This document shows, piece after piece, positions 5,938 to 19,479 of a DNA stretch of 20,815 nucleotides. A model generated the notes under the pieces. The model ran no database searches. It was not told the origin of the DNA and saw nothing but the letters and a program-made list of their open reading frames with translations. Origin of the DNA: a virus; IMG/VR virus record IMGVR_UViG_3300028490_000034, positions 1 to 20,815 of that record; one strand, written 5' to 3'. The translations under genes were made by a program, and so were the position numbers. How positions within the stretch are numbered: position 1 is the first letter of the stretch; each line of letters opens with the position of its first letter.

Positions 5938-6555
5938 TTAGTCAGAGACCTTGTACATTATACCGCCACTACGTCTGACTGCCATCTTGTTGGATGCAGC
6001 TCTAGCTCTAGCAGCAGCAACACCTTTGTTGTATACCATACCACCTTTACCGTCGACTCTATATCTTTGGTTAGGATTAAGTCTCTGTAAGTACTCTCCT
6101 GCATTAGGTAACATAGCTCCTGGGTTAGTAGTAACTTCCCACAGACCATCTTGCTCATTATATCTAGTTGAAGCATACTTACTAGCAACTCCCATATTTA
6201 GAGGCTGCCTCTCTCCAGCGAACTCCATATGACCATACTCAGCAATAATCTGATCATCAGTAAGGTTACGCCCAGCATTAGCTTCCTGCGCTCTGATGGC
6301 TGCCAGTTTCTTGGGATCCATACCAGCTCTCTTTGTTTTTCCAGCTATCTTACCCATGGAGTTGTAATAGGCTTTACCCATATTAGTTCTATCACCATAT
6401 TTTGGTGCAGACACATCTACTCCACCCACAACATCACCTCCGCCAATACCTTTTTTCTTGATGCCGAAAGATTTATCGCCTCCAACAGCAACTGGCGCAG
6501 TTTTAGTACCAATTTGTGCTTTTATTATATGTCCTTTCTTTAAGTATATTATCAT
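5938..6555 (-). CDS. Tagged probable virion protein, 205 aa
   Basis: The N-terminus MIIYLKKGHIIKAQIG has a Y-x-K element followed by K-x-Q-x-G, as in four other genes on this page. The C-terminus RRSGGIMYKVSD matches the GG-x-x-Y ending of the 301-aa and 392-aa proteins, and a second internal copy, GKGGMVYNKG, lies at about residues 169-178. The N-terminal 50 residues are glycine-rich, the middle is basic and helical, and there is no membrane segment. It is the last gene of the five-gene operon, four bases after the previous stop, with a terminator downstream. The enzymatic role is unknown; I infer a protein carried in the particle from its tag and operon partners. Confidence 0.7.
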   Translation of the reverse strand: MIIYLKKGHIIKAQIGTKTAPVAVGGDKSFGIKKKGIGGGDVVGGVDVSAPKYGDRTNMGKAYYNSMGKIAGKTKRAGMDPKKLAAIRAQEANAGRNLTDDQIIAEYGHMEFAGERQPLNMGVASKYASTRYNEQDGLWEVTTNPGAMLPNAGEYLQRLNPNQRYRVDGKGGMVYNKGVAAARARAASNKMAVRRSGGIMYKVSD

Positions 6556-6559
6556 AAGT

Positions 6560-7465
6560 CTAATATTTATATAGGATTCCTCCGTTATTTTTAATCTTTG
6601 TGTTATCTCTGACCATAGGCATATAGGCAGAAGACTTTACATCTCTTTTTTGGTATACTGGATCACCCCATAAAAACCCCATAATACTTTCATCAGTATT
6701 AACACCTTCATTAGCTGCATCAACCTTCTTCTGTTTAAAGTTTTTCATGTGCTCGTCATTCTTGTATACCTTTCCATTTACATCGCCAACCCAGCCTCTG
6801 TACATATCTTCTTCACTATTCTGTCCAGCTAAAAAGCCATTCAGTGGAATCTTCTTACTGTAGTTCATATGTAATAATGCCATAAGGGCTTGATCTTCAA
6901 CACCTAAGTCCTCAACATTCTTAGCTTTAAGAATATTGTCAAACAGTTTAGGGTCCAGATCATATTCTTTAATTGCGTTCTTAGCTCTCTGTTGGTTAAC
7001 AATAAAAGCATCGTCAATGAATTGGAAGTAGCCGTTAGCTGTGCCGCCTTCAGCAGTAGTCTTTATGTTCTTACGTTTAGTTTCAGCGAAGCTGACAGAG
7101 CCTAGCAGGCGTACAAATTTATCAAAGCCCTCTTCACCGCCCTTCATCTTGCGCCACGCTGTCATCAGTTTACTGTTTGTTGCCCTGGCATCTCCCATTA
7201 TACTCCCAGCATCTTCGTAAGACATGCTAATATTAGGTACACCACCAGTGTCTGGCGCGATAGCGCTAGTATTATTAGTAGCAACAGTATTAACTTGAGG
7301 TGTCATAACTTCAGTATAGTCAGCACGCCCAGTAGTTGGGTCTGGGTCAGGTGTGGTAAACAGTCCGTCCTCGCTAGTAAGCTCAGCGGTCCCAGCGGTG
7401 AATGATCCACCGCCCTGTCTTTTCTTGACCCTTAAAATTACTTTGTTATAAAATATACCGTTCAT
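6560..7465 (-). CDS. Lytic-transglycosylase-like virion protein with shared tag
   Basis: This 301-residue protein probably cleaves the peptidoglycan glycan backbone. Residues 114-205 look like a lysozyme-like transglycosylase fold: a helix ending SFAET with the candidate catalytic Glu128, then NGYFQF (145-149), which fits the G-x-[YF]-Q-[IF] motif, and a helix EDQALMALLHMNY (190-202). The N-terminus MNGIFYNKVILRVKKRQGGG carries the shared tag and the C-terminus NNGGILYKY the shared ending. Residues 21-90 are a low-complexity Thr/Asp/Pro linker. There is no signal peptide, so it is not exported by Sec from the host; a virion-borne enzyme that opens the wall during entry fits best. A late lysis endolysin is the alternative. 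Confidence 0.7.
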   Translation of the reverse strand: MNGIFYNKVILRVKKRQGGGSFTAGTAELTSEDGLFTTPDPDPTTGRADYTEVMTPQVNTVATNNTSAIAPDTGGVPNISMSYEDAGSIMGDARATNSKLMTAWRKMKGGEEGFDKFVRLLGSVSFAETKRKNIKTTAEGGTANGYFQFIDDAFIVNQQRAKNAIKEYDLDPKLFDNILKAKNVEDLGVEDQALMALLHMNYSKKIPLNGFLAGQNSEEDMYRGWVGDVNGKVYKNDEHMKNFKQKKVDAANEGVNTDESIMGFLWGDPVYQKRDVKSSAYMPMVRDNTKIKNNGGILYKY

Positions 7466-7469
7466 AAAG

Positions 7470-8804
7470 TTATAGTCTTCTTAAGCCCTTCTTACGAAAT
7501 TTAATCTCCTCAACCTCTTTCCAATTCTTGCCATAATCACTAAGGTCATCCAACGGTTTTTGTGCCGCTCTCCTAATCTCTTCTAGCTCCCTACTAGATT
7601 TGATAGGTATACGTGTAAGTGGCTTCTGCTCTATTAAAGGTTTGAGTGGTCTGCTGGCAATTCTATCCACTGGTAGCATATTAGCAGCCTTCATATCTCT
7701 CTCCCACTTAGGGTCATATTTACCAGCTCTCAAGTCTATGTTATATTGTTTAAGTCTTTTCTCCATAGATATCTTATCTGCCAATTTAGTAGCATCTCTA
7801 TGTGCAGACTCTTCGTCAAGTCTCTTCATAGCATTAAGGTAGTCATCGTCCCCAGCATATTTGCTAATATCAGCACCACTACCACCTCTACCACCTTTAC
7901 TTCTAGCAGCATCTTCAGCAGCTCTCATCTCTCTCTCAATACCTCTAGCCTCACTTGCCCCAGAGTAATCTCTTATAGCAGCCTCAGTCTCAGATCTCAT
8001 AATATCACTTTGTCTAGCCTCTTCAGCATACAAAGCATCATAGTGAGCAACATCCATAGCATCATCAGACTTCTGTGCCCAAACTTCCATAGGCATATGA
8101 CCTCCACTGTCAGACATTGCAGCATCACTTTTCATCTTTCTCAGATACTCTTGCTCCATCTCCATCATCTCTCCTCTACTCATCTGACCACGAGAACCAG
8201 GTGCATCTTCACTTAAATCAATTAAAGTTTCAGCAGTATTTAGTTTCTTGTTCCTAGCCAGGTTACTAGCCAGTACCTCAGCCTCACTAGATTTAAACAC
8301 TTTATTAGCAATGCTCTTACCGCCGCCCATCCCAGCAAAAGGATTAAGCAACTCATTACCTACAGCCAACGCAGTATGGGCCCCAGGTTTAGCAAACGCT
8401 CCAGCTGGAGTAAATCCTACAGCCATTGCAGTGTTAAGGATAGCGGCAGGAAGTTTCTTACCTCCTATTTTAAGCAATCTCCCCATCTTTTCTTGCACAG
8501 GCAAATCACTCATCTTTACGCTATTATACTCAGCCCTCTCAGCATCACTGAAATTACCAAGGCTATATGGATCCTCAAGCATCTTAAGTAGCTTAGCTCC
8601 AACAGGTTCATTAGTTCCCCTAACTTTATTAGAAAACGCAGTATCAGCTTCTCTTTTATATTGGTCTCTATTATCTTGTCTAACGCCAGCTTCAGGTCCA
8701 TACTCAGGATTCAACCCACTCATGGCACTCATTTCTTCTCTTGTTGGGAAAGCCTTACCATTCTGCAGCTTCTCTACTCTATGTTTTTTATAAAAGATAC
8801 TCAT
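7470..8804 (-). CDS. Tagged large probable virion protein, 444 aa
   Basis: The start MSIFYKKHRVEKLQNGKAF has Y-x-K followed by K-x-Q-x-G like its neighbours; the C-terminus FRKKGLRRL lacks the GG-x-x-Y ending. A moderately hydrophobic Ala/Gly segment at about residues 117-165 (AAILNTAMAVGFTPAGAFAK) could insert in or cross a membrane. The remainder is highly charged and helical with many Arg, Asp and Glu residues (about 200-360). Such a layout fits an internal protein ejected with the DNA that helps form a channel, but this is inference. It begins two bases after the stop of the 60-aa gene and is followed by the transglycosylase after four bases. Confidence 0.65.
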   Translation of the reverse strand: MSIFYKKHRVEKLQNGKAFPTREEMSAMSGLNPEYGPEAGVRQDNRDQYKREADTAFSNKVRGTNEPVGAKLLKMLEDPYSLGNFSDAERAEYNSVKMSDLPVQEKMGRLLKIGGKKLPAAILNTAMAVGFTPAGAFAKPGAHTALAVGNELLNPFAGMGGGKSIANKVFKSSEAEVLASNLARNKKLNTAETLIDLSEDAPGSRGQMSRGEMMEMEQEYLRKMKSDAAMSDSGGHMPMEVWAQKSDDAMDVAHYDALYAEEARQSDIMRSETEAAIRDYSGASEARGIEREMRAAEDAARSKGGRGGSGADISKYAGDDDYLNAMKRLDEESAHRDATKLADKISMEKRLKQYNIDLRAGKYDPKWERDMKAANMLPVDRIASRPLKPLIEQKPLTRIPIKSSRELEEIRRAAQKPLDDLSDYGKNWKEVEEIKFRKKGLRRL

Positions 8805-8806
8805 TT

Positions 8807-8989
8807 TTATTTTTTATTAAATTGATTAATAACTCTAAGTGCATTAAGTGCTTTATTGTTACCAAGACTAGAGCTATCTTCTTTAATAGCACCACCAGCC
8901 CTGAATAGGCGTATAGACGAAGAAGACGCTTTCCTTAATTTATCAAGGCTACGTATGTCGTTCTCATCTCTCTTAGTATAAAAAATCAT
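8807..8989 (-). CDS. Small tagged protein, 60 aa
   Basis: The product is basic and serine-rich: MIFYTKRDENDIRSL, then a SSSS run and RLFRAGGAIKEDSSS. It keeps the Y-x-K start, and FRAGG at residues 29-33 stands where the others have the Q-x-GG element, but with R in place of Q. Its ATG shares one base with the previous stop (TAATG), and the next gene follows within two bases, so translation is probably coupled. It could be a minimal cargo protein that is little more than tag plus tail, or the remnant of a longer one. Confidence 0.6.
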   Translation of the reverse strand: MIFYTKRDENDIRSLDKLRKASSSSIRLFRAGGAIKEDSSSLGNNKALNALRVINQFNKK

Positions 8990-9876
8990 TATTGTCTGTA
9001 TTTTACAGATGTTTTGTACATATTACCTCTATTACCAGACGGCATAACTCCAGTTGGAGCAGTACCTGCTTGACCTATAGCCAAAGGATTAGTAGCTACA
9101 CCACCAGTTTGAACACTTTTTCTAAGTGCATCGTTTCTAAGTCCAGCACCTATAGTATCTCGTTTTCTCTCAGCAGAGAATTCAGAACCACTACGTACAG
9201 CAGCAGCTTTACCAGCAGCAGCTCTTGCACTATAATCAGTTCCCCAAGTAGCTTTAGACTTTGCCATAGTAGCAGCACGTCTATTCATAACAGCAGTGTT
9301 GCCTAAAGTTGTTCCACTCTGTGCTTTATAAGGAGTTTCTCTTACCATACCTCCACTTTGCATAGATCCAGCTTTTTTACGTTCATCTGCTTCTCTACTA
9401 TACACTGTTCTCATACTGTCTGCTTTTTGCGAATATGCTGCAGTATCTTTAATAGCTTTTTGTTTATATTCCTCACGTTTTTTTCTAGCCTCTTCAGCAT
9501 AGTATTTAACAGCCTCTTCATTAGATTTAAACTTTGGGTCAACTACACCTCCACTTTGCATAGATCCAGCAGGTGTGAATGTACTAGTGTTATTTAAAGC
9601 GCTTTGTCCAGCCCTAGCATTTTTTCTATATGCTGCACTCATGTCAACAAAAGGCTTTTTACCAATTGATTTTGCAGCCCCTATTGCTGGACTATTTTTA
9701 AGCATGTTTTTAGCAGCAGCTTTACCAGCAGCAGGGCCAGCAGTTTTAGCAACTCCGACAGCAAAGCCAGCTTTTGCCCCAGGAGAATAGCTCTTAGCTA
9801 CATTTCCTCCAGCCTGCATCTTCTTTATTCTATATAACCCAAGCTCAGGCTTTTTGATAATTTCTTTTTTCATCAT
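8989..9876 (-). CDS. Basic Ala/Gly-rich tagged protein with repeated MQxGG motifs
   Basis: The 295-residue product is strongly basic and rich in Ala, Gly, Lys and Ser. The element [MV]-Q-x-G-G occurs at residues 20-24 (MQAGG), 106-110 and 173-177 (MQSGG, both inside AGSMQSGG) and 255-259 (VQTGG), with a weaker KAQSG at 184. Between the first two lies an Ala-rich low-complexity stretch, and between the second and third a charged helix (EEAVKYYAEEARKKREEYKQ). The two AGSMQSGG copies rest on a 24-bp exact DNA repeat. It ends RGNMYKTSVKYRQ, a variant of the GG-x-x-Y ending. It leads the operon. A DNA-condensing or cargo protein that is cut at the motifs is possible. Confidence 0.65.
   Translation of the reverse strand: MMKKEIIKKPELGLYRIKKMQAGGNVAKSYSPGAKAGFAVGVAKTAGPAAGKAAAKNMLKNSPAIGAAKSIGKKPFVDMSAAYRKNARAGQSALNNTSTFTPAGSMQSGGVVDPKFKSNEEAVKYYAEEARKKREEYKQKAIKDTAAYSQKADSMRTVYSREADERKKAGSMQSGGMVRETPYKAQSGTTLGNTAVMNRRAATMAKSKATWGTDYSARAAAGKAAAVRSGSEFSAERKRDTIGAGLRNDALRKSVQTGGVATNPLAIGQAGTAPTGVMPSGNRGNMYKTSVKYRQ
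9349..9570 (-). repeat. Two exact 24-bp direct repeats inside the 295-aa gene
   Basis: The 24 bases at 9349-9372 and 9547-9570 are identical (plus strand begins ACCTCCACTTTGCATAGATC). They encode the two AGSMQSGG copies. Identity at the third codon positions means the duplication is recent or is maintained by recombination. Confidence 0.8.
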
Positions 9877-9907
9877 ATTATATTTAATCGATTAATGTAT
9901 ACTTCTT

Positions 9908-9916
9908 TATAATACT
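9908..9916 (-). promoter_or_regulatory. AGTATTATA motif upstream of the tagged-protein operon
   Basis: AGTATTATA on the minus strand, preceded by AAAAAAAG, lies 31 bases before the ATG at 9876. The same nine bases stand upstream of 10419, 12028 and 17179 on the plus strand, so it is a candidate core promoter for this operon. Confidence 0.5.
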
Positions 9917-10136
9917 CTTTTTTTAGCATACTCACACGTATAATAGGTAAAAATCCTCCTCGTCATATATATTTAATAGCTCTGCAGCGTAGCAAAGGAG
10001 GTAACACGTTGATATATAGGGAAAAGGGCTTTTGATGGGGAGGACTCGGATTGGCCTGAAAGGCGCAAGGTGAGGGAGGGGCCCTGCCAGACCATCACAG
10101 TTACCAGAACTATATGTGGAGGGTCGTAGCTTGTTT

Positions 10137-10168
10137 ATGTAGCTGGCTTTTAAAGGCTATAGCTACAT
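10137..10168. repeat. Nested inverted repeat in the divergent region
   Basis: ATGTAGCT (10137-10144) is repeated as AGCTACAT (10161-10168). Between them is GCTTTTAAAGGC, itself a palindrome with one mismatch. The whole could form a 32-base cruciform or RNA hairpin; it lacks a T-run. Confidence 0.65.
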
Positions 10169-10183
10169 GGCCTGCACAGACGG

Positions 10184-10225
10184 TCACTACCAAATATGGA
10201 CAGATCACTACCAAATATGAACAGA
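10184..10225. repeat. 21-bp tandem repeat, iteron-like
   Basis: Two head-to-tail copies of TCACTACCAAATATG, G or A, then ACAGA (10184-10204 and 10205-10225) differ at one base. A further ACAGA precedes the first copy and TAGTGA follows the second. The 21-base period, two helical turns, puts the copies on one face of the DNA and fits binding of a protein array. Confidence 0.75.
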
Positions 10226-10390
10226 TAGTGAAGCAGCTTCGCACAGTTGTTTGAATTATTTCCATACCGTCCCTGTAAGGAGATACTATAAGTACTATGT
10301 CTATCAAGTAGTTATAAACAATCCCCTATTAGATTTATACACTTACATAACAAAATTGAACACTTTGACACAATATTGTCGTCTATTTTT

Positions 10391-10399
10391 AGTATTATA
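10391..10399 (+). promoter_or_regulatory. AGTATTATA motif upstream of the winged-helix gene
   Basis: ATTTTTAGTATTATA ends 19 bases before the ATG at 10419 and is followed by AAAGAATAG (10407-10415). The same pair of elements precedes the portal gene. TTGACA at 10365 lies too far upstream (22-base spacer to TATTAT) for a standard sigma-70 promoter. Confidence 0.55.
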
Positions 10400-10418
10400 T
10401 AGGTATAAAGAATAGTTT

Positions 10419-11300
10419 ATGACAAAAGAAGAGAGAAATAAGAAGAAAGTTAAGTTGTTGGCCGACCATGAATTTCATATGAAAGAAGGCAAACAGGAGA
10501 TTATTGTGAAGAATATAAAAAGTTTGTATATCTATGCTCCAAGAGGTGAGGGTGCTATGGAAAATATTGGTATGCACGCTAGGATACCATTAAGACTACG
10601 TGGCCTCACAAATGCAGAACTTCTTGTTTTATCTTATATTGAGATACACCAATTCTCTGACAAGAGTTTTAACTTTATCACAAAGAATAGGAAGGCTATG
10701 CCAGTTAAGCTGTTTGCAAGAGTACTTAAACTAAGTGAAATGTCTGTAAGTAGATCTTTAGCTACTCTTATAAAGAAGAATATAATAACAAAAATAAGAG
10801 ACGTACACAAGTCTAAGAACACTTACTTCAGTAATATGATTAAAAAAGGTGTTGAGTATCAGATGTTTACATTAAAGTTTATAAAGAGGGCTGATATTAG
10901 TAAATCTGCAAGAGGATTTTTGATAAGAGTCATGATGCTAAATACTAGTAAGCTAACTGATGTTGGGAATATAGCCGATCTAAGTAGAAGAGTAAACATG
11001 TCTAGAACATCTATTTATAAAGCTCTTAATGAACTAGCGGACAGAGAATTTTTATATGATATAGGGGAAGGTATATTTGGACTAAATACTAAATTTATAT
11101 CTGAAGAGTTTGAAAGGCGTGAGGTTGTGGAGACTGCTGACATTATGAATGAGATATTCACAAAGGATGAGGAGATTAAGATGTTACGAACAGAGCTAAT
11201 TAAGCTAAGAAGAGAGCTAAATATTCTAAGAGCTGAAAATAAAACTATGAGAACATACATATATAATGACAGGGTGGACGACGAATACAGCGGATTATAA
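10419..11300 (+). CDS. Tandem winged-helix DNA-binding protein
   Basis: The 293-residue protein has two helix-turn-helix units. The first, about residues 60-125, contains LTNAELLVLSYIEIH, KLFARVLKLSEMSVSRSL and IKKNIITKI. The second, about 160-217, contains DLSRRVNMSRTSIYKALNEL and ADREFLYDIG, a clear winged-helix pattern. Residues 245-282 (EEIKMLRTELIKLRRELNIL) form a leucine-heptad coiled coil, so it is probably a dimer. It leads the plus-strand block next to a 21-bp tandem repeat. It may be a transcription regulator of the divergent promoters. A plasmid-type replication initiator, which also has two winged helices and binds iterons, is the alternative. Confidence 0.75.
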   Translation: MTKEERNKKKVKLLADHEFHMKEGKQEIIVKNIKSLYIYAPRGEGAMENIGMHARIPLRLRGLTNAELLVLSYIEIHQFSDKSFNFITKNRKAMPVKLFARVLKLSEMSVSRSLATLIKKNIITKIRDVHKSKNTYFSNMIKKGVEYQMFTLKFIKRADISKSARGFLIRVMMLNTSKLTDVGNIADLSRRVNMSRTSIYKALNELADREFLYDIGEGIFGLNTKFISEEFERREVVETADIMNEIFTKDEEIKMLRTELIKLRRELNILRAENKTMRTYIYNDRVDDEYSGL

Positions 11301-11317
11301 TAATTAAATAAGATAAT

Positions 11318-12001
11318 ATGGCAAATAAGAAACAAATGTTTACCTACATCCTGAAAGACAAGGATTTAGACATCTACAAAATTGGAAAAACTACTGACCC
11401 GTCAGTGAGATTTAAAAGTCTTTGTACTAGAGGAGAAGTTTACCCTATAGCAATTATAGATGAAGATGTTGAAAAGGAACTACATAGGATGTATGACGAT
11501 AATAGAATTGGAACCAATGCTAAAGCAGCATCAGGGGTCACAGAGTGGTTTAGAAGAGGAGGTAAATTTGATGACCTTTTGAAGGAAATTGATGATGGGG
11601 AAGAAGTCCCATATATTACGCCGCATGCTATGCTAAAGGATATGGAAAGTAAAGGTAATTTCGACATACTTGGGCCTGGGGCTATGTGGGATTTTGATAA
11701 TATTGTATCCAGTCGACACGCACTAGGAACTGCTTTTCTACAAAGCATAGGGGCCCTAGTTGGAAAGCCTTTCAATTATACAGTAGCACCTGGGTATGAG
11801 GATGATATAAAGCTTTATACGATTAAGGTATCCCTTACTGACAGCTTCGCTACTATGCTAGCCTCAACTTATAAGATAGCTCTTGGGGATAAGTCTACTT
11901 TAGAGGCCTTAAAAACAATGAAGGGGGATGGAACTGTGTGTCTATGCTCTACAAAAATAAAGGGATTTACTTTTTATTTTATCATAAATAAAGTATTATA
12001 A
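11318..12001 (+). CDS. GIY-YIG (T5orf172-type) nuclease-like protein
   Basis: The N-terminal 80 residues fit the T5orf172 branch of the GIY-YIG nucleases: TYILKDKDLDIYKIGKT (9-25) supplies the Y-x-L and Y-K-I-G strands, Arg31 follows in DPSVRFKSL, then EKELHRMYDDNRI with Glu54 and ends at TEWFR (75-79). These proteins cut or bind DNA, and many are phage-borne. The C-terminal 125 residues (from TPHAMLKDME) are not recognised. It follows the winged-helix gene by 17 bases, and its last codons contain the AGTATTATA motif of the next gene. A selfish homing nuclease and a DNA-processing factor are both possible. Confidence 0.75.
   Translation: MANKKQMFTYILKDKDLDIYKIGKTTDPSVRFKSLCTRGEVYPIAIIDEDVEKELHRMYDDNRIGTNAKAASGVTEWFRRGGKFDDLLKEIDDGEEVPYITPHAMLKDMESKGNFDILGPGAMWDFDNIVSSRHALGTAFLQSIGALVGKPFNYTVAPGYEDDIKLYTIKVSLTDSFATMLASTYKIALGDKSTLEALKTMKGDGTVCLCSTKIKGFTFYFIINKVL
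11992..12000 (+). promoter_or_regulatory. AGTATTATA motif upstream of the peptidoglycan-binding gene
   Basis: The motif spans the last codons of the GIY-YIG gene (AAAGTATTATAA includes its stop) and lies 27 bases before the ATG at 12028. It is a weaker case than the two intergenic plus-strand copies because it overlaps coding sequence. Confidence 0.4.
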
Positions 12002-12027
12002 TAAAAATAACACGTTAAAACATAAGA

Positions 12028-13206
12028 ATGGGAATACTATATAACAAAGGGACACGTAAATTTCAAGAAGGAGGCTCAGTGCCTAGTAAAGAAGCACTAG
12101 TCAGTGCTGGAGATCCAAATGATGCATACGCGTCAGATATTCCTGTTGATGTTGAAGACGTTGATTCTGAGGTTGTTAAGGCTAAAGTTGCTTTAGATAG
12201 AGCCAAAAGACGTGAGAGAGTGACTAGACTGCAGAAGATAATGATACAGAATGGCCTACTGAATGGAGAAGGTGAAGAAGCTGCTGATGGTGTAATTGGT
12301 CTTAGAACTAAAGGAGCTATTGAGAAAGCTAAGAGGATACAGAAGATGCTTAAAGTTAAGCAGGATGGTATTATAGGCAAGAAGACTATTAGATCTGCTG
12401 CTGAAAAGGGTGTTGGTATCGATGAGCTGGTTAGGCATATTGACAACACACCTATGTTTCAAGGTGGTGGAGAGATTGGATATTATAGTCCTGATGATTA
12501 TTGGAAGAAGCATTTTGATGAGGGCAAAAGATTTAACGAATATAATAAACTTGTAGTGGAGTCTGATGACCTTAGGTTATTGGACGATGATGGAGCCAGC
12601 AAGGATTATGGGTATGTTAGCAATGGTATGAATTATATTGGGAGAGACCCATCATTCGACGGTAATGAAATACGTGGGTATGAGGATACTCCAGCCGACT
12701 ATGATGCTAGAATGGCCCCACCTGAGAAGTATAAATTTGGAGTTCTTGGTGGAAGTGATTTTACCACTACCAAGACACCAGAGGAAAAGAAGATTATAGA
12801 GGACGAGATACGAGCTTCCGAGGCAGAAAATAGAACCACAAGAATACAGCAGATACTTATTGACTATGGTGCATTATCTGGAGAAGGCGCTGAAGGCGCT
12901 GATGGTAAGATGGGAGCAAATACTTCACGCGCTATGGATGATGTTGAGGCCTTACAGGATGCTATAGGAGCAGACAAAGACGGTATCATAGGCCCTGAGA
13001 CTATACGTAAAGCTAAAGAGAAAGGTATTGATATTAGACAGTTTTTATCTAATAGAAGAGCACCTAAGACAGGTGGGGTTGGATCACTTATTACACCAGA
13101 CATGTTTGGTAAAATTGATGAGGTTGCTGCTATGAAAGTTATTGATGATGCAAGAGAGCTTAAGAAAAGAGGATTTAATAAAGGAGGCGTCCTATACGGA
13201 AGATAA
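12028..13206 (+). CDS. Tagged double peptidoglycan-binding virion protein
   Basis: The 392-residue protein has two copies of a peptidoglycan-binding (PG_binding_1-like) module, about residues 63-128 and 270-334. Each has two D-G-x-x-G turns: DGVIG 87-91 and DGIIG 113-117, then DGKMG 292-296 and DGIIG 318-322, with LQKIMIQNGLLNG or IQQILIDYGALSG helices before them. The N-terminus MGILYNKGTRKFQEGGSV has the shared tag, an internal FQGGG lies at 144-148, and the C-terminus NKGGVLYGR has the shared ending. No catalytic domain is seen, so it probably anchors to the cell wall. It is the only tagged protein on the plus strand and likely works with the transglycosylase at 6560-7465. Confidence 0.75.
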   Translation: MGILYNKGTRKFQEGGSVPSKEALVSAGDPNDAYASDIPVDVEDVDSEVVKAKVALDRAKRRERVTRLQKIMIQNGLLNGEGEEAADGVIGLRTKGAIEKAKRIQKMLKVKQDGIIGKKTIRSAAEKGVGIDELVRHIDNTPMFQGGGEIGYYSPDDYWKKHFDEGKRFNEYNKLVVESDDLRLLDDDGASKDYGYVSNGMNYIGRDPSFDGNEIRGYEDTPADYDARMAPPEKYKFGVLGGSDFTTTKTPEEKKIIEDEIRASEAENRTTRIQQILIDYGALSGEGAEGADGKMGANTSRAMDDVEALQDAIGADKDGIIGPETIRKAKEKGIDIRQFLSNRRAPKTGGVGSLITPDMFGKIDEVAAMKVIDDARELKKRGFNKGGVLYGR

Positions 13207-14942: not shown

Positions 14943-17132
14943 ATGAAAATAAGATCTAAAACTACATACGACAAGTATAACGATAAGAAGCTAGACTTTT
15001 TAGAGTATACTGACGATGGTAAGATTATGAATGGTGAGTGGGATGTCACTGAGGTAAAAGATTATCTTGAGGGTATTAAAACTGGTGAGGAAGAGATTAG
15101 GTTGAAAGACTATCTTGTTTATCGACCGCTACCTGTTGGTCTACTGAAGCTGGGAGAGATGCCAGATGTTCACCCTCAATCATATGAGATGCAGCTATGG
15201 TACAAGACACTGTACACTGCTACTACTGAGGGAGTTACCATTGGGAAGGAATACTTTAATCCTTTCTTTGTATTTTGGATATTGGTATTTATATTTGAGA
15301 TACCTATGTATGATGATGAGGGCAACCCTATGGAGGGTTCTGAAATTGATCAGCCTATCTATGCTAACATGGACAGGTATATGCTTGACATATTTTGGAA
15401 AGCATACAAGCAAAGGAAGTATGTGGCGCTAATGTCTGGTCGTGGACTGGGGAAATCGTTCCTTACCTCCGCAATTGAAGCGTGGTACTACACGTTATTC
15501 GATAACCAAGAACTTATTGTTTCCGCTACATCTGAACCGATTGTGGAAGAGGCGTGGACAAAGACTACAGATACATTTGATTTAATTGAAAAGAAATTCC
15601 CTGGCTTCAGGCAGAAAAGGATATTGAATAGTAATATCAAGATTCAGGCTGGAGAAGAGTATTATGATGCTAACGGTGACCTACAGACTAGGGGATCGCT
15701 GAATGATGTGCGTCGTATTGTATATGGTGATAACGCCAACAAAACAAGGGGTCGTCGACCACACTTCCAACACGTGGAGGAGTTCGCGGCATTCCCTATG
15801 CACCCATCCAAAGGCTCATTGAAAAACGTTATTGGTCAGTCAAAAGGATCGTGGCTTGTGATGGGGTCATTTAAGAAAGCATTTGTTATTTACACTGGGA
15901 CTGGTGGATCTGTTAACAACAAGGACGCTGAGGATGTGTTTACAAATCCTACTGCCTATAACCTTATAGAAGTTAATGAGTGGGGTAAACCTACAAGTCT
16001 TTTCATACCTACATTCCTAAAGTATGCTGGAACGTGGGAGAAGACTGGAGTGCCTAATATTAAACTTGCTTTAGAGAGAGTGCATAAGAACAGGGAAGGG
16101 CTTGAGTCTGACCCAGTTGCATATCTGAAGGAACTGCAGGAATTCCCTATTACTCTGGATGAGGTATTCATCGTACATGGTACGAACATTTTTAATCAAG
16201 ATAAGATCAGTGAGATGATTGCCAAAGCTAAGATGGCTAGAGAGAAGACATATGACGTCGGAAAACTGGAGTACGTTTTAGATAGTAATGGTAATGTACA
16301 GGATGTGAAGTTTGTTGAGGACCCTACGGGAGATATCATCATTGTAGAGCACCCTCACAAAGAGACTAATGGTAAGATACTTAATAACCTCTATGTTGCT
16401 GGAATAGATAGTATTGACCAAGGTAAGGCTGACTCGCTTGTAGATGGGTCTAAGCTGGCCATGACGGTCAAGAAAAGGATTTCTGGCTCTATGTTTACTC
16501 AGACCAGTAACCTCTATGTAGCCTTCTATAACAAGCGATCTGAGCAAGTTAGGTGGGACTATGAAAACGCACTAAAGTTAAGTATGTACTTTAACGCGAG
16601 GGTGAATTTGGAATACACAAAGATTAATATTATCTCGCATTTTAGAGAGCGTGGGCAGTTTTGGAGATTTCTTCAGAGACCGTCTATTGCAATTGGGGCG
16701 AATGTTAGTGGGGCCAAGGCAAGTACTCTTATTGGTACACCAGCCACATCTCACGTTATTGCTCACCAGGATCAGAAACTTGCTGACTATATAGATGACT
16801 TCTATTATCAGATTGTATATCTACCTGCGCTTGAGCAGCTTAGGGACTACTCTATGGAAGCTAGAACCAAGTTTGACTACGTTGTTGCAATGGGGCTGAC
16901 GGAACTTGCTGACGAAGACTTTTTGGGTAAGCCTGCCACTGCTGGAGGATCTGCCACAGAAGACATAGCTGATTTTGGATTCTATAGAGATAAAAGAGGC
17001 GTGAAACGTTGGGGAGAAATCCCTAGAGAGTCAACTGAGATAAAGAGTATCGCTGAAGATATGATTAATGAGCAGATAGAGGACGCAAATAATCCATTTA
17101 CTTGGGTAGAAGCTAATTCATCCAGACGATAA
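14943..17132 (+). CDS. terL: Large terminase, ATPase and nuclease
   Basis: This packaging motor protein (729 aa) moves DNA into the head and cuts concatemers. The Walker A motif is MSGRGLGKSF with Gly166-Ser172. Walker B-like HFQHVEEF (274-281) provides the acidic pair at 279-280. The RNase H-like nuclease domain follows: VAGIDSID with Asp489, ARVNLEYTK with Glu557, and FDYVVAM with Asp645. The length is above the common 450-650 range but fits large-genome crAss-like phages. It lies two bases after a helical gene and is followed by the portal, the conserved packaging order. I see no intron, inteins or frameshift. Confidence 0.93.
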   Translation: MKIRSKTTYDKYNDKKLDFLEYTDDGKIMNGEWDVTEVKDYLEGIKTGEEEIRLKDYLVYRPLPVGLLKLGEMPDVHPQSYEMQLWYKTLYTATTEGVTIGKEYFNPFFVFWILVFIFEIPMYDDEGNPMEGSEIDQPIYANMDRYMLDIFWKAYKQRKYVALMSGRGLGKSFLTSAIEAWYYTLFDNQELIVSATSEPIVEEAWTKTTDTFDLIEKKFPGFRQKRILNSNIKIQAGEEYYDANGDLQTRGSLNDVRRIVYGDNANKTRGRRPHFQHVEEFAAFPMHPSKGSLKNVIGQSKGSWLVMGSFKKAFVIYTGTGGSVNNKDAEDVFTNPTAYNLIEVNEWGKPTSLFIPTFLKYAGTWEKTGVPNIKLALERVHKNREGLESDPVAYLKELQEFPITLDEVFIVHGTNIFNQDKISEMIAKAKMAREKTYDVGKLEYVLDSNGNVQDVKFVEDPTGDIIIVEHPHKETNGKILNNLYVAGIDSIDQGKADSLVDGSKLAMTVKKRISGSMFTQTSNLYVAFYNKRSEQVRWDYENALKLSMYFNARVNLEYTKINIISHFRERGQFWRFLQRPSIAIGANVSGAKASTLIGTPATSHVIAHQDQKLADYIDDFYYQIVYLPALEQLRDYSMEARTKFDYVVAMGLTELADEDFLGKPATAGGSATEDIADFGFYRDKRGVKRWGEIPRESTEIKSIAEDMINEQIEDANNPFTWVEANSSRR

Positions 17133-17178: not shown

Positions 17179-19479
17179 GTGATAGGAGATTATTTAACAA
17201 TAGAACATGAGGTACACCTGTCTGACAAACAAAAGCTTAAACCTAAGTATTTTGAAGACATGGCCAGGCATTATATAATGCTCCTTAATTATGATAGGGA
17301 TAACATTACTAGTGCTAGAAATTATTACTCTAGTGTTAGGGATGAGTATGACTTTCAATATTTGGAAGATATCTATGGTATGCAAAACCCTATTGATCTT
17401 GGGTTCACTAATATCATTAAACCTAGAGTAGATGCCCTAGTTGGACTAAGTTTACTAAGTGAACCAACTTTTCAAACACATTATACTGATAAAGAGACTA
17501 TTGCCAAAGTTAAAGAAGAAAAGATTGGGGCGATGGTTAATGATATATTTGCTGACATTAACAATGGTATACAGATAGCTCAAAAGGCGAGTGCCGATGG
17601 AAAAGATCCTGCTAAACAAAAAGGAGGAATTGGAGCAGACACTAAGGAGTTCTTAGATAATACTGCAAAGAAGTATGGTGAGGAATTCATGTCCTCATAT
17701 CAGATAGCTGCCGACCATATTATAAGGTTAATTGAGACTGATGCTGAGATAGATCTTAGTAATGTAAAGAAAGAGGTGGCGAAAGATTACTTTATAACTG
17801 GCGAAGGATACACTAGAGAAATATATAAAGGAGAAGGGAAGGACCCAAAGATTGAGGTTATCTTACCTGACTATTTTTACTCTAATAGACCTCGTCTTGA
17901 TAAAGATTTAAAGAGAACCAGTGTTGTAGTTTATAGAGAACGTATATCTCCTCACGAAGTCTTGAAAAAATTAGGGGATAAAATTACTAAAGAGGATGCT
18001 GAGAGATTATTTTCATACTACGGGGCACTAAGTGGTGAGGAGTTATCACTTAATGGTGGATCGCCTGATGCAGAACTTAATGCACCTGTAGATGATATGC
18101 ACCAGCTTGACACTTTCTATCTAAAGACTGGGTGGATAAACGGTCCGTTAAATGGTCCAGGAGGATACAAAGGACCTCTAGTGGATCTATACCATGTTGA
18201 GTGGCTTGCATCCACAAGAATACCTAATGGTAAAGGTGGGTACGTGTACCGTGAGGACCGCTATGAAGCCTACAGAGTTGGATATGATATTTATATTGGT
18301 GGGCGTCGTTGTGATGAGGCACCAAGAACAAAAGACGAGCCGTGGAAAACAAATCTTTCTTATAAAGGTGCTATTAATGCATCGCGTACAGGAGTAATAC
18401 ACTCTATGGTGCATTCTATGAGAGAATTACAGGATCTATATGATATCATAATGTTCTTTAGAAATAATGCCATAGCTAACTCGGGAGTAAGCGGTTCACG
18501 TGTAAACACTGCTGCTATACCTAAGGCTCTTGGTAAAAAATTTATGGATAGGCTAACTAAATGGATTACCATTAGAAAGCAGGGTATTGAACTTATTGAC
18601 CCAACTGAAGAGGGCGCACAGCTCTTTCAGCACTACGGGGACTTTGATGCCTCTGTGGACGGAAATACTATCCAATCTATTAATGCAGTTCTTGAATCTC
18701 TTACGGTGCAGGCCGACATCGTCAGTGGTGTGCCTCGCCAGATGCTTGGTATCATAGAGGAGAGGGATGCTGTTGAAAATGTAAGAGTCGGACTTAATCA
18801 AGTCTCTATTCTTTCATTAGAAATGTTTAGAGAGGTGGATAGAATACTTAACAGGGCTGTTCAGGGTACTCTAGATAATTTTAAATACTCATATAGAAAT
18901 AAAGCACTTCAAGGAGTGTATAAAAATGGTGTCGCTATGATGCCTTTTATACTTCAACCTGACGAATTCAGTACCACTGATTATAAAGTTACTGTGATAA
19001 GTGCTGGTATTGAGAACGCTAAACTTATGAAAATCCAAGCATTGGCTAAGGAGTTCGTGAGTGCTGGTGCAATTGATCCTGATGTACTTATTAAAATAAT
19101 CAATAATAAATCTATTGTTGAGATTGAATACTTACTAGCTAAGGCTACTGCCAAGAAAAAGGAGGAGATGCAAAGTATGGGACAACTAGAGCAACAACTC
19201 GAGGAGTCACAAAAGCAGGTTAAGCAACTTGAAGGGGAGATTAGAAGATTAGAAAATAATGCTAGTCAACAACTTGAGGGAAGACTTGAGCTTGATACTA
19301 AAAAGGTAGAGAATGAGGCCAGATTTAAGGAAAAAGAAATTTCACTTACTGAGGCTAAGAATAAAAAAGATAATGAGTCCAAAGCCAGAGAGCTTAATAT
19401 TAAGCAAGACCTAGTTGATCTCGAGAGGGAGCAGCTAGTTTATGGGCCAGGAAGTAGTAAAGAAATTAAAAACCAATAA
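17179..19479 (+). CDS. Portal protein
   Basis: The 766-residue protein follows the large terminase and has the build of a portal: a long N-terminal helical wing (residues 1-130), a beta-rich middle with DYFITGEGYTREIYKG and VVVYRERISPHEVLKKLG, the crown/stem region with SINAVLESLTVQADIVSGVP and RQMLGIIEERDAVENVRVG, and a C-terminal coiled coil at about 664-752 (QLEQQLEESQKQVKQLEGEI). The portal ring is the DNA gate at one vertex and contacts the terminase. The best start is GTG at 17179, since no ATG is in frame between the upstream stop at 17146 and codon 28. It is much longer than the roughly 500-600 aa usual in T7-like phages, consistent with crAss-like portals. Confidence 0.85.
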   Translation: MIGDYLTIEHEVHLSDKQKLKPKYFEDMARHYIMLLNYDRDNITSARNYYSSVRDEYDFQYLEDIYGMQNPIDLGFTNIIKPRVDALVGLSLLSEPTFQTHYTDKETIAKVKEEKIGAMVNDIFADINNGIQIAQKASADGKDPAKQKGGIGADTKEFLDNTAKKYGEEFMSSYQIAADHIIRLIETDAEIDLSNVKKEVAKDYFITGEGYTREIYKGEGKDPKIEVILPDYFYSNRPRLDKDLKRTSVVVYRERISPHEVLKKLGDKITKEDAERLFSYYGALSGEELSLNGGSPDAELNAPVDDMHQLDTFYLKTGWINGPLNGPGGYKGPLVDLYHVEWLASTRIPNGKGGYVYREDRYEAYRVGYDIYIGGRRCDEAPRTKDEPWKTNLSYKGAINASRTGVIHSMVHSMRELQDLYDIIMFFRNNAIANSGVSGSRVNTAAIPKALGKKFMDRLTKWITIRKQGIELIDPTEEGAQLFQHYGDFDASVDGNTIQSINAVLESLTVQADIVSGVPRQMLGIIEERDAVENVRVGLNQVSILSLEMFREVDRILNRAVQGTLDNFKYSYRNKALQGVYKNGVAMMPFILQPDEFSTTDYKVTVISAGIENAKLMKIQALAKEFVSAGAIDPDVLIKIINNKSIVEIEYLLAKATAKKKEEMQSMGQLEQQLEESQKQVKQLEGEIRRLENNASQQLEGRLELDTKKVENEARFKEKEISLTEAKNKKDNESKARELNIKQDLVDLEREQLVYGPGSSKEIKNQ

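Follow-up and report, generated by a model that had tools for sequence, protein, structure and literature searches.

Introduction

In phage T4, the capsid targeting sequence (CTS) is a short sequence that constitutes the sole common element of highly diverse injected internal proteins, and it routes these proteins into the precursor scaffolding core (PMC3012670). In phage P1, the 30 N-terminal residues of DarB suffice to carry a reporter into the capsid, and the Dar proteins possess no common consensus recognizable by BLAST (PMC9024508). In crAss001, gp45, gp46, gp47, gp49, and gp50 have been identified as virion cargo by mass spectrometry, and within the capsid the portal is contacted by residues 425-552 of gp45 (PMC10172136). 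Here we describe a short motif at the termini of otherwise unrelated proteins encoded by IMG/VR virus record IMGVR_UViG_3300028490_000034, whose positions 1 to 20,815 (hereafter, the window) are 20.8 kb of the genome of a crAss-like phage. The motif is real, is distributed far more widely than the window, and is apparently undescribed, no published description being found in the open-access papers searched. We argue below that it probably serves as an address for proteins packaged with phage DNA.

A Tag Shared by the N-Termini of Unrelated Proteins

An earlier note on this DNA had proposed that six proteins encoded by the window share an N-terminal tag. All six N-termini are present as described, but the strict form of the tag, [KR][FYLMAI]Q-x-G-[GKNTS] inside the first 40 residues, is carried by just four of them, the RQGGG and FRAGG versions being looser. 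On the minus strand, the protein of 205 amino acids (aa; gene at 5938-6555) carries the tag MIIYLKKGHIIKAQIGT (6505-6555), the 444-aa protein (7470-8804) carries MSIFYKKHRVEKLQNGK (8754-8804; MSIFYKK...EKLQNGK), and the 301-aa protein (6560-7465) carries MNGIFYNKVILRVKKRQGGG (7406-7465; MNGIFYNK...KKRQGGG), in which the spacing of RQGGG differs. Also on this strand, the 295-aa protein (8989-9876) possesses the tag ..GLYRIKKMQAGG (9805-9876; LYRIKKMQAGG), with Y-x-x-K in place of Y-x-K, and the 60-aa protein (8807-8989; region 8891-8989) possesses the MIFYTK start, but the LFRAGG that follows ~22 residues on (RLFRAGG) has no Gln in register, and this second half is weak. The only tagged protein of the plus strand, the 392-aa double peptidoglycan-binding protein (12028-13206), carries MGILYNKGTRKFQEGG (12028-12075). 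A hydrophobic-hydrophobic-Tyr-x-Lys start is seen in five of the six, with LYRIK in the 295-aa protein. When all 29 genes of the window are considered, the Q-G part is found in five and the hydrophobic-Y-x-K start likewise in five, and neither count was matched in 20,000 shuffles within each N-terminus.

The bodies of the tagged proteins are indeed unrelated, as the note had claimed. Iterated searches with five of the six bodies (the 60-aa one excluded) returned only themselves from the sequences searched, the sole exception being a weak peptidoglycan-binding link (E=1e-6) between the 392-aa protein and a tagged protein of 386 aa encoded by a relative. The 301-aa protein bears a weak resemblance to transglycosylases, and AlphaFold modeling of this protein alone produced no usable fold (predicted local distance difference test score, pLDDT, of 33). 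The codons at the shared residues vary between the window genes, indicative of conservation of the protein and not of the DNA, and a purely nucleotide-level cause of the tag is thereby ruled out.

C-Terminal and Internal Copies of the Motif

Two further features were absent from the earlier note. First, three of the tagged window proteins also end in a half-tag, GG[ILV][LFM]Y, namely the 205-aa protein (GGIMYKVSD, 5941-5967, minus strand), the 301-aa protein (GGILYKY, 6563-6583, minus strand), and the 392-aa protein (GGVLYGR, 13183-13203, plus strand). Across the tag clade, this C-terminal half-tag is found in 12 of 319 genes versus 0.2 expected (the reversed form gives 0), and in one of the 777 genes of the control genomes described below. 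Second, internal copies are found. The 295-aa protein possesses four xQxGG elements, at residues 20 (the N-terminal one), 106 (MQSGG, 9547-9561), 172 (MQSGG, 9349-9363), and 255 (VQTGG, 9100-9114), all on the minus strand; the 392-aa protein possesses FQGGG at residue 144 (12457-12471, plus strand), and the 205-aa protein possesses GGMVYNK at residue 171.

One example is especially informative as to how these parts relate. A 578-aa protein of G002, a relative of the window phage, carries RKGGILYIKKYQNGT at its middle, a C-terminal tag running into an N-terminal tag, which shows the two to belong to one motif. In full, this motif reads [K]-G-G-[IL]-[LF]-Y-x-K-(x)n-K-[YF]-Q-x-G-G; where it opens a protein, Met takes the place of the first G-G, giving M-x-[IL]-[LF]-Y-x-K...K-[FY]-Q-x-G-G, and where it closes one, the first half alone, GG[IL][LF]Y, is retained.

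Recurrence of the Motif in crAss-Like Phages and in IMG/VR

An N-terminal motif search of related phages had been proposed beforehand as a check, and the motif recurs in them. Among the relatives, ~40 contigs collected through terminase and capsid searches, with genes called simply as longest open reading frames (ORFs), the strict motif is found within the first 40 aa in 26 of the 485 genes of tag-bearing relatives versus 0 of 777 genes in controls (p=1e-11), the latter being eight genomes representing Steigviridae, Suoliviridae, Intestiviridae, and FpV4. The reversed strict motif has 0 matches, and at the DNA level K[FY]QxGG has 18 matches and its mirror 0. One example is L005, with the tags MSKGIFYKSKKQKFQSGG, MSKLLYSKK...RQGGILYKL, and RRGGILYKR, and another is G003, with MSLIYTRKGKVQKFQNGG...NGGLLYKKR and MSLIYKPRKFQEGG. 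In G002 (80 kb), a run of genes starts with MSLLYVQKFQIGG, MSLLYVEKFQKG, MSLLYTKKYQTEG, MLYNKVKKFQPGK, MALLKKYQDGG, MMLYNKIGKYQKGK, and MALLKKYQKGN, while in MT835470 (117 kb) the starts are MSQAIRKYQTGGK, MEIINKIQKLQGGG, MRKIMKFQWGN, MATKFQQGG, and MKVIPKLQQGN. That the tag is a feature of crassviruses at large is rejected, as it is absent from FpV4 and from those genomes of Steigviridae, Suoliviridae, and Intestiviridae that were tested.

All IMG/VR contigs were scanned for a single codon spelling of KKYQxGG, producing at least 120 matches, 55 of which, among the matches listed, fall in the first 40 residues of an ORF, versus 41 matches for the reversed peptide, only one of them N-terminal (Fisher p=1.5e-6). 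The 114 tagged ORFs fall, by single linkage, into 60 families without detectable similarity, and when representatives are aligned, MxxxxxKKYQxGG is the main conserved block. The consensus of these families is [IVL]-K-K-[YF]-Q-x-G-G, in which KK is biased by the scan pattern and the preceding aliphatic residue is not; N, K, T, or S can stand in for the last G, and the position that follows is random. No named isolates were found with tagged proteins of the L125, L134, L167, L170, or L189 type. Relatives of the L195 protein do occur in pelagiphages, the HTVC104P copy starting with MLTKIKRIRRNTGGEARKF, without the strict motif. Two other C-terminal motifs were noted in tagged proteins: a G[GA]AxGP[HN]GIL-like end is common to different proteins of L188 (4675-5502 and 5521-6336) and L160 (88-522), and DG[IC]A-x-x-GKT[KR]GR is common to small proteins of L136, L146, L182, and L198.

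Proteins Carrying the Tag and Positions of Their Genes

For most of the tagged proteins, function is not recognizable. Those that are recognizable include an SLT transglycosylase of G002 (6e-17), with LLYNDK at the N-terminus and GGLLYKK at the C-terminus and without the Q-G part, a glucosaminidase of MT835470 (3e-9), and the 392-aa protein of the window, with PG_binding_1 (8e-10). In L189, tagged sequence matches the tail protein phrog_24249 (1e-15) and, below the cut-off, Transglycosylas (1e-4), and a tagged 262-aa protein of L167 matches the DNA ejection protein phrog_4287 (4e-8). The crassvirus cargo protein 1 domain, PF25725 (crAss_CARG1), is recognized at a cut-off of 27 bits in a tagged 431-aa protein of L134/L245 (31.8 bits) and in a tagged 1062-aa protein of L189/L246 (28.7 bits), both belonging to phage contigs other than the window, and a Pfam scan detected it in none of the six window proteins. 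The remaining Pfam matches in the tagged families are weak, and no replication or metabolic enzyme is prominent among them. By eye only, two further tagged proteins possess HExxH-like sequences and one possesses an ADP-ribosyltransferase-like stretch, confirmed by no search.

The tagged genes also occupy characteristic positions. In G020, a 1322-aa protein, assigned as the muzzle from its position and size, is followed by the tagged CARG1 protein (431 aa) and by proteins of 406 aa and 928 aa, an order resembling gp44-gp45-gp46 of crAss001. In MT835470 and G002, the tagged genes likewise come after the tail/muzzle genes, and in these two genomes combined, the most complete of those with the tag, it is found in 14 of 116 late genes versus 0 of 98 other genes (p=1e-4). 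The condition set by the earlier note for refuting its reading, a motif equally common in non-virion proteins, did not refute it. A 568-aa protein of MT835470 shares its C-terminal domain with a 519-aa protein of G002 and has no match to PF25725; its identity as a gp45 homolog is moderately supported.

A separate observation concerns a second recurring module of ~50 residues, ..GxFTxxAxxxGMxVQExAxxVLA...KKANFARNAxxW, found terminally or close to a terminus in unrelated proteins (MT835470 110250-110552, G011 16506-16841, G002 60148-61953, L163 4609-5493), of which a divergent copy is present inside cargo protein 1 of crAss001 (gp45, L007).

One tagged family deserves separate consideration. An acidic family of 376-401 aa, encoded immediately upstream of the major capsid gene and conserved across crAss-like phages (L015 17175-18380, L006 5486-6685, L092 18304-19458, L096 13593-14783, L002 32522-33658), is probably the scaffold. 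In the nearest relatives of the window phage its members are tagged (MSFKKFQGGG, MKKKFQGGG, KKIFQSGG, KIKKYQQG), and in the sister lineages they are not, the tag being confined to the window clade; it looks to have been gained or lost.

The Window and Its Phage

The window is placed among the crAss-like phages because its terminase large subunit (TerL; 14943-17132, plus strand) matches phrog_6681 (3e-42). The portal protein, encoded next (17179-19479, plus strand), matches phrog_6547 (4e-36). Both proteins are untagged, and the tagged block is positioned upstream of the terminase. The window TerL is 23-30% identical to those of named Crassvirales and MT835470, with no named relative above 30%, the nearest being IMG/VR contigs and MT835470. 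As to the host, relatives of neither TerL nor the L134 protein were found among GTDB genome contigs. The gene directly preceding the tagged 392-aa gene encodes a PF10544 T5orf172/GIY-YIG-like endonuclease domain (11318-12001), and a comparable gene is present in the equivalent place in L005.

Possible Function of the Tag

We consider it reasonably probable that the tag, as a short linear motif, targets proteins to the virion interior or anchors them there, where they would be packaged with the DNA and from where they would be ejected into the host. The earlier note had suggested a sorting or cleavage signal, and it is the sorting of ejected cargo that is favored by the occurrence in ~60 families, by the late gene positions, and by the CARG1, ejection, and muralytic proteins among the carriers, while nothing was found in support of cleavage. 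A docking address for virion cargo is proposed on precedents that include P1, in which such a short N-terminal segment suffices. The exposed peptide would dock on some surface that only the procapsid offers, for example on the scaffold, the portal crown, or the inner shell of the capsid, and, as the likely scaffold is sometimes itself tagged, the dock may be on the inside of the capsid or on the portal, at a surface with which the scaffold is also in contact. Tagged proteins once packaged would travel with the DNA into the host. With an address of ~15 residues, wall-cutting domains, pore proteins, and possibly host-modifying enzymes could join the cargo merely by acquiring the tag, which would explain why the tags are conserved and the bodies are not.

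A number of points weigh against this interpretation. The place of the tagged proteins inside the particle is one that we infer, some of the tagged enzymes could be ordinary lysins by which the phage leaves the cell, and the likely scaffold, tagged in the window clade, need not be ejected. The regular expression behind the counts in relatives was derived partly from the genomes first scored, the IMG/VR scan being the independent test, and in that scan internal copies make up 43 of the 98 in-ORF matches among the matches listed. Further, crAss001 and cr85 possess C1 cargo without the tag, which crassvirus cargo therefore does not generally require, and the giant proteins encoded next to the tagged cargo genes are also untagged (MT835470 49835-58738, 2967 aa; G002 left end to 6870, at least 2290 aa), so other loading routes exist. 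As a separate matter, these giant proteins share a different N-terminal start, ..DWF....N.

The strongest alternative, which we nevertheless regard as unlikely, is a signal for proteolytic maturation comparable to the adenovirus protease sites or to the prohead protease systems of T4 and HK97. During head maturation, a phage protease would cut N-terminal regions after ..xQxG(G) and C-terminal regions at GG/ILYK (cut at the slash), trimming cargo and scaffold. Few elements of the motif are as conserved as G-G, whether at either terminus or where the two tags join inside the 578-aa protein, the four spaced xQxGG elements in the basic, Ala-rich 295-aa protein are reminiscent of a processed core-protein precursor, and the likely scaffold bears the motif in the window's clade. 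However, the scaffold of sister lineages lacks it, the final G is replaceable and the next position random, the upstream Ile-Leu-Tyr-x-Lys half, unneeded for a bare G-G site, is conserved too, and the matching C-terminal and internal copies suit a docking motif at least equally. No S77, S78, C5, or C48 protease was detected above cut-off in 15 records, several of them fragments, and, as the S77, C5, and C48 controls (all but S78) gave no match either, those negatives are weak.

Still less probable is recognition by a cytoplasmic partner (a chaperone, a holin, or a lysis regulator), or envelope targeting of late lysis proteins, unrelated to packaging. Several tagged proteins are muralytic or peptidoglycan-binding, which suits lysis as well, but the carriers also include a DNA-ejection protein, the likely scaffold, and the CARG1 proteins, none of which are lysis proteins, and the tagged gene run of G002 is longer than a lysis cassette requires. 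That the tag has no function and reflects translation-initiation preferences (A-rich early codons resulting in Lys, Asn, and Tyr), recombination at gene starts, or general richness in Lys and Gly is very hard to believe, since, even with codon usage in AT-rich phages accounting for some of the KK/NK at positions 5-8 and with many tagged proteins rich in GG and K, composition-preserving shuffles never attain the observed counts, the reversed peptide is rare and nearly never N-terminal, the same motif occurs at C-termini, codons vary between genes, and no tagged genes are found among the 777 of related phages.

If the tag does address cargo to the virion, the implications are practical. The bodies of ejected proteins diverge past recognition, so which phage proteins enter the host is mostly unknown; the tag would provide a sequence rule for spotting injected proteins in metagenomes, including possible anti-defense and host-modifying enzymes, and possibly a means by which phage particles could be made to carry foreign proteins. 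A broader proposal, that K-[YF]-Q-x-G-G / GG-[IL]-L-Y-x-K serves many unrelated tailed-phage lineages as a general address code with which ejected effectors are loaded, is offered tentatively, and we hold it to be rather doubtful; if true, sequence alone would suffice to recognize injected cargo throughout viral dark matter.

Comparison with Known Systems

The sites of the adenovirus maturation protease are of the xxGG/x type, located near the N-termini of core proteins and, in some, at the C-terminus. The GG of the tag near N-termini and its C-terminal copies are similar, but here the Lys-aromatic-Gln and Ile-Leu-Tyr parts are also conserved, and the C5/C48 search gave no match (nor did its controls). 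The likeness to crAss001 is through cargo protein 1 (gp45), as PF25725 is recognized above the curated cut-off in two tagged proteins, one of them in the same gene slot, whereas gp45 itself is untagged and contacts the portal through an internal domain and not a terminal peptide. With DarB of P1, the tag shares its N-terminal position, and, unlike for the Dar proteins, one consensus extends here across ~60 families. The CTS of T4 permits proteolytic processing in the prohead, while the S77/S78 search here found no match, and the tag differs in being K-[YF]-Q-x-G-G and in occurring also at C-termini and internally. Nevertheless, here too a short sequence is common to unrelated proteins, as evident from the 60 families and from the position statistics, and, set beside the T4 CTS by description only, the tag may work like the capsid targeting sequences of T4 and P1.

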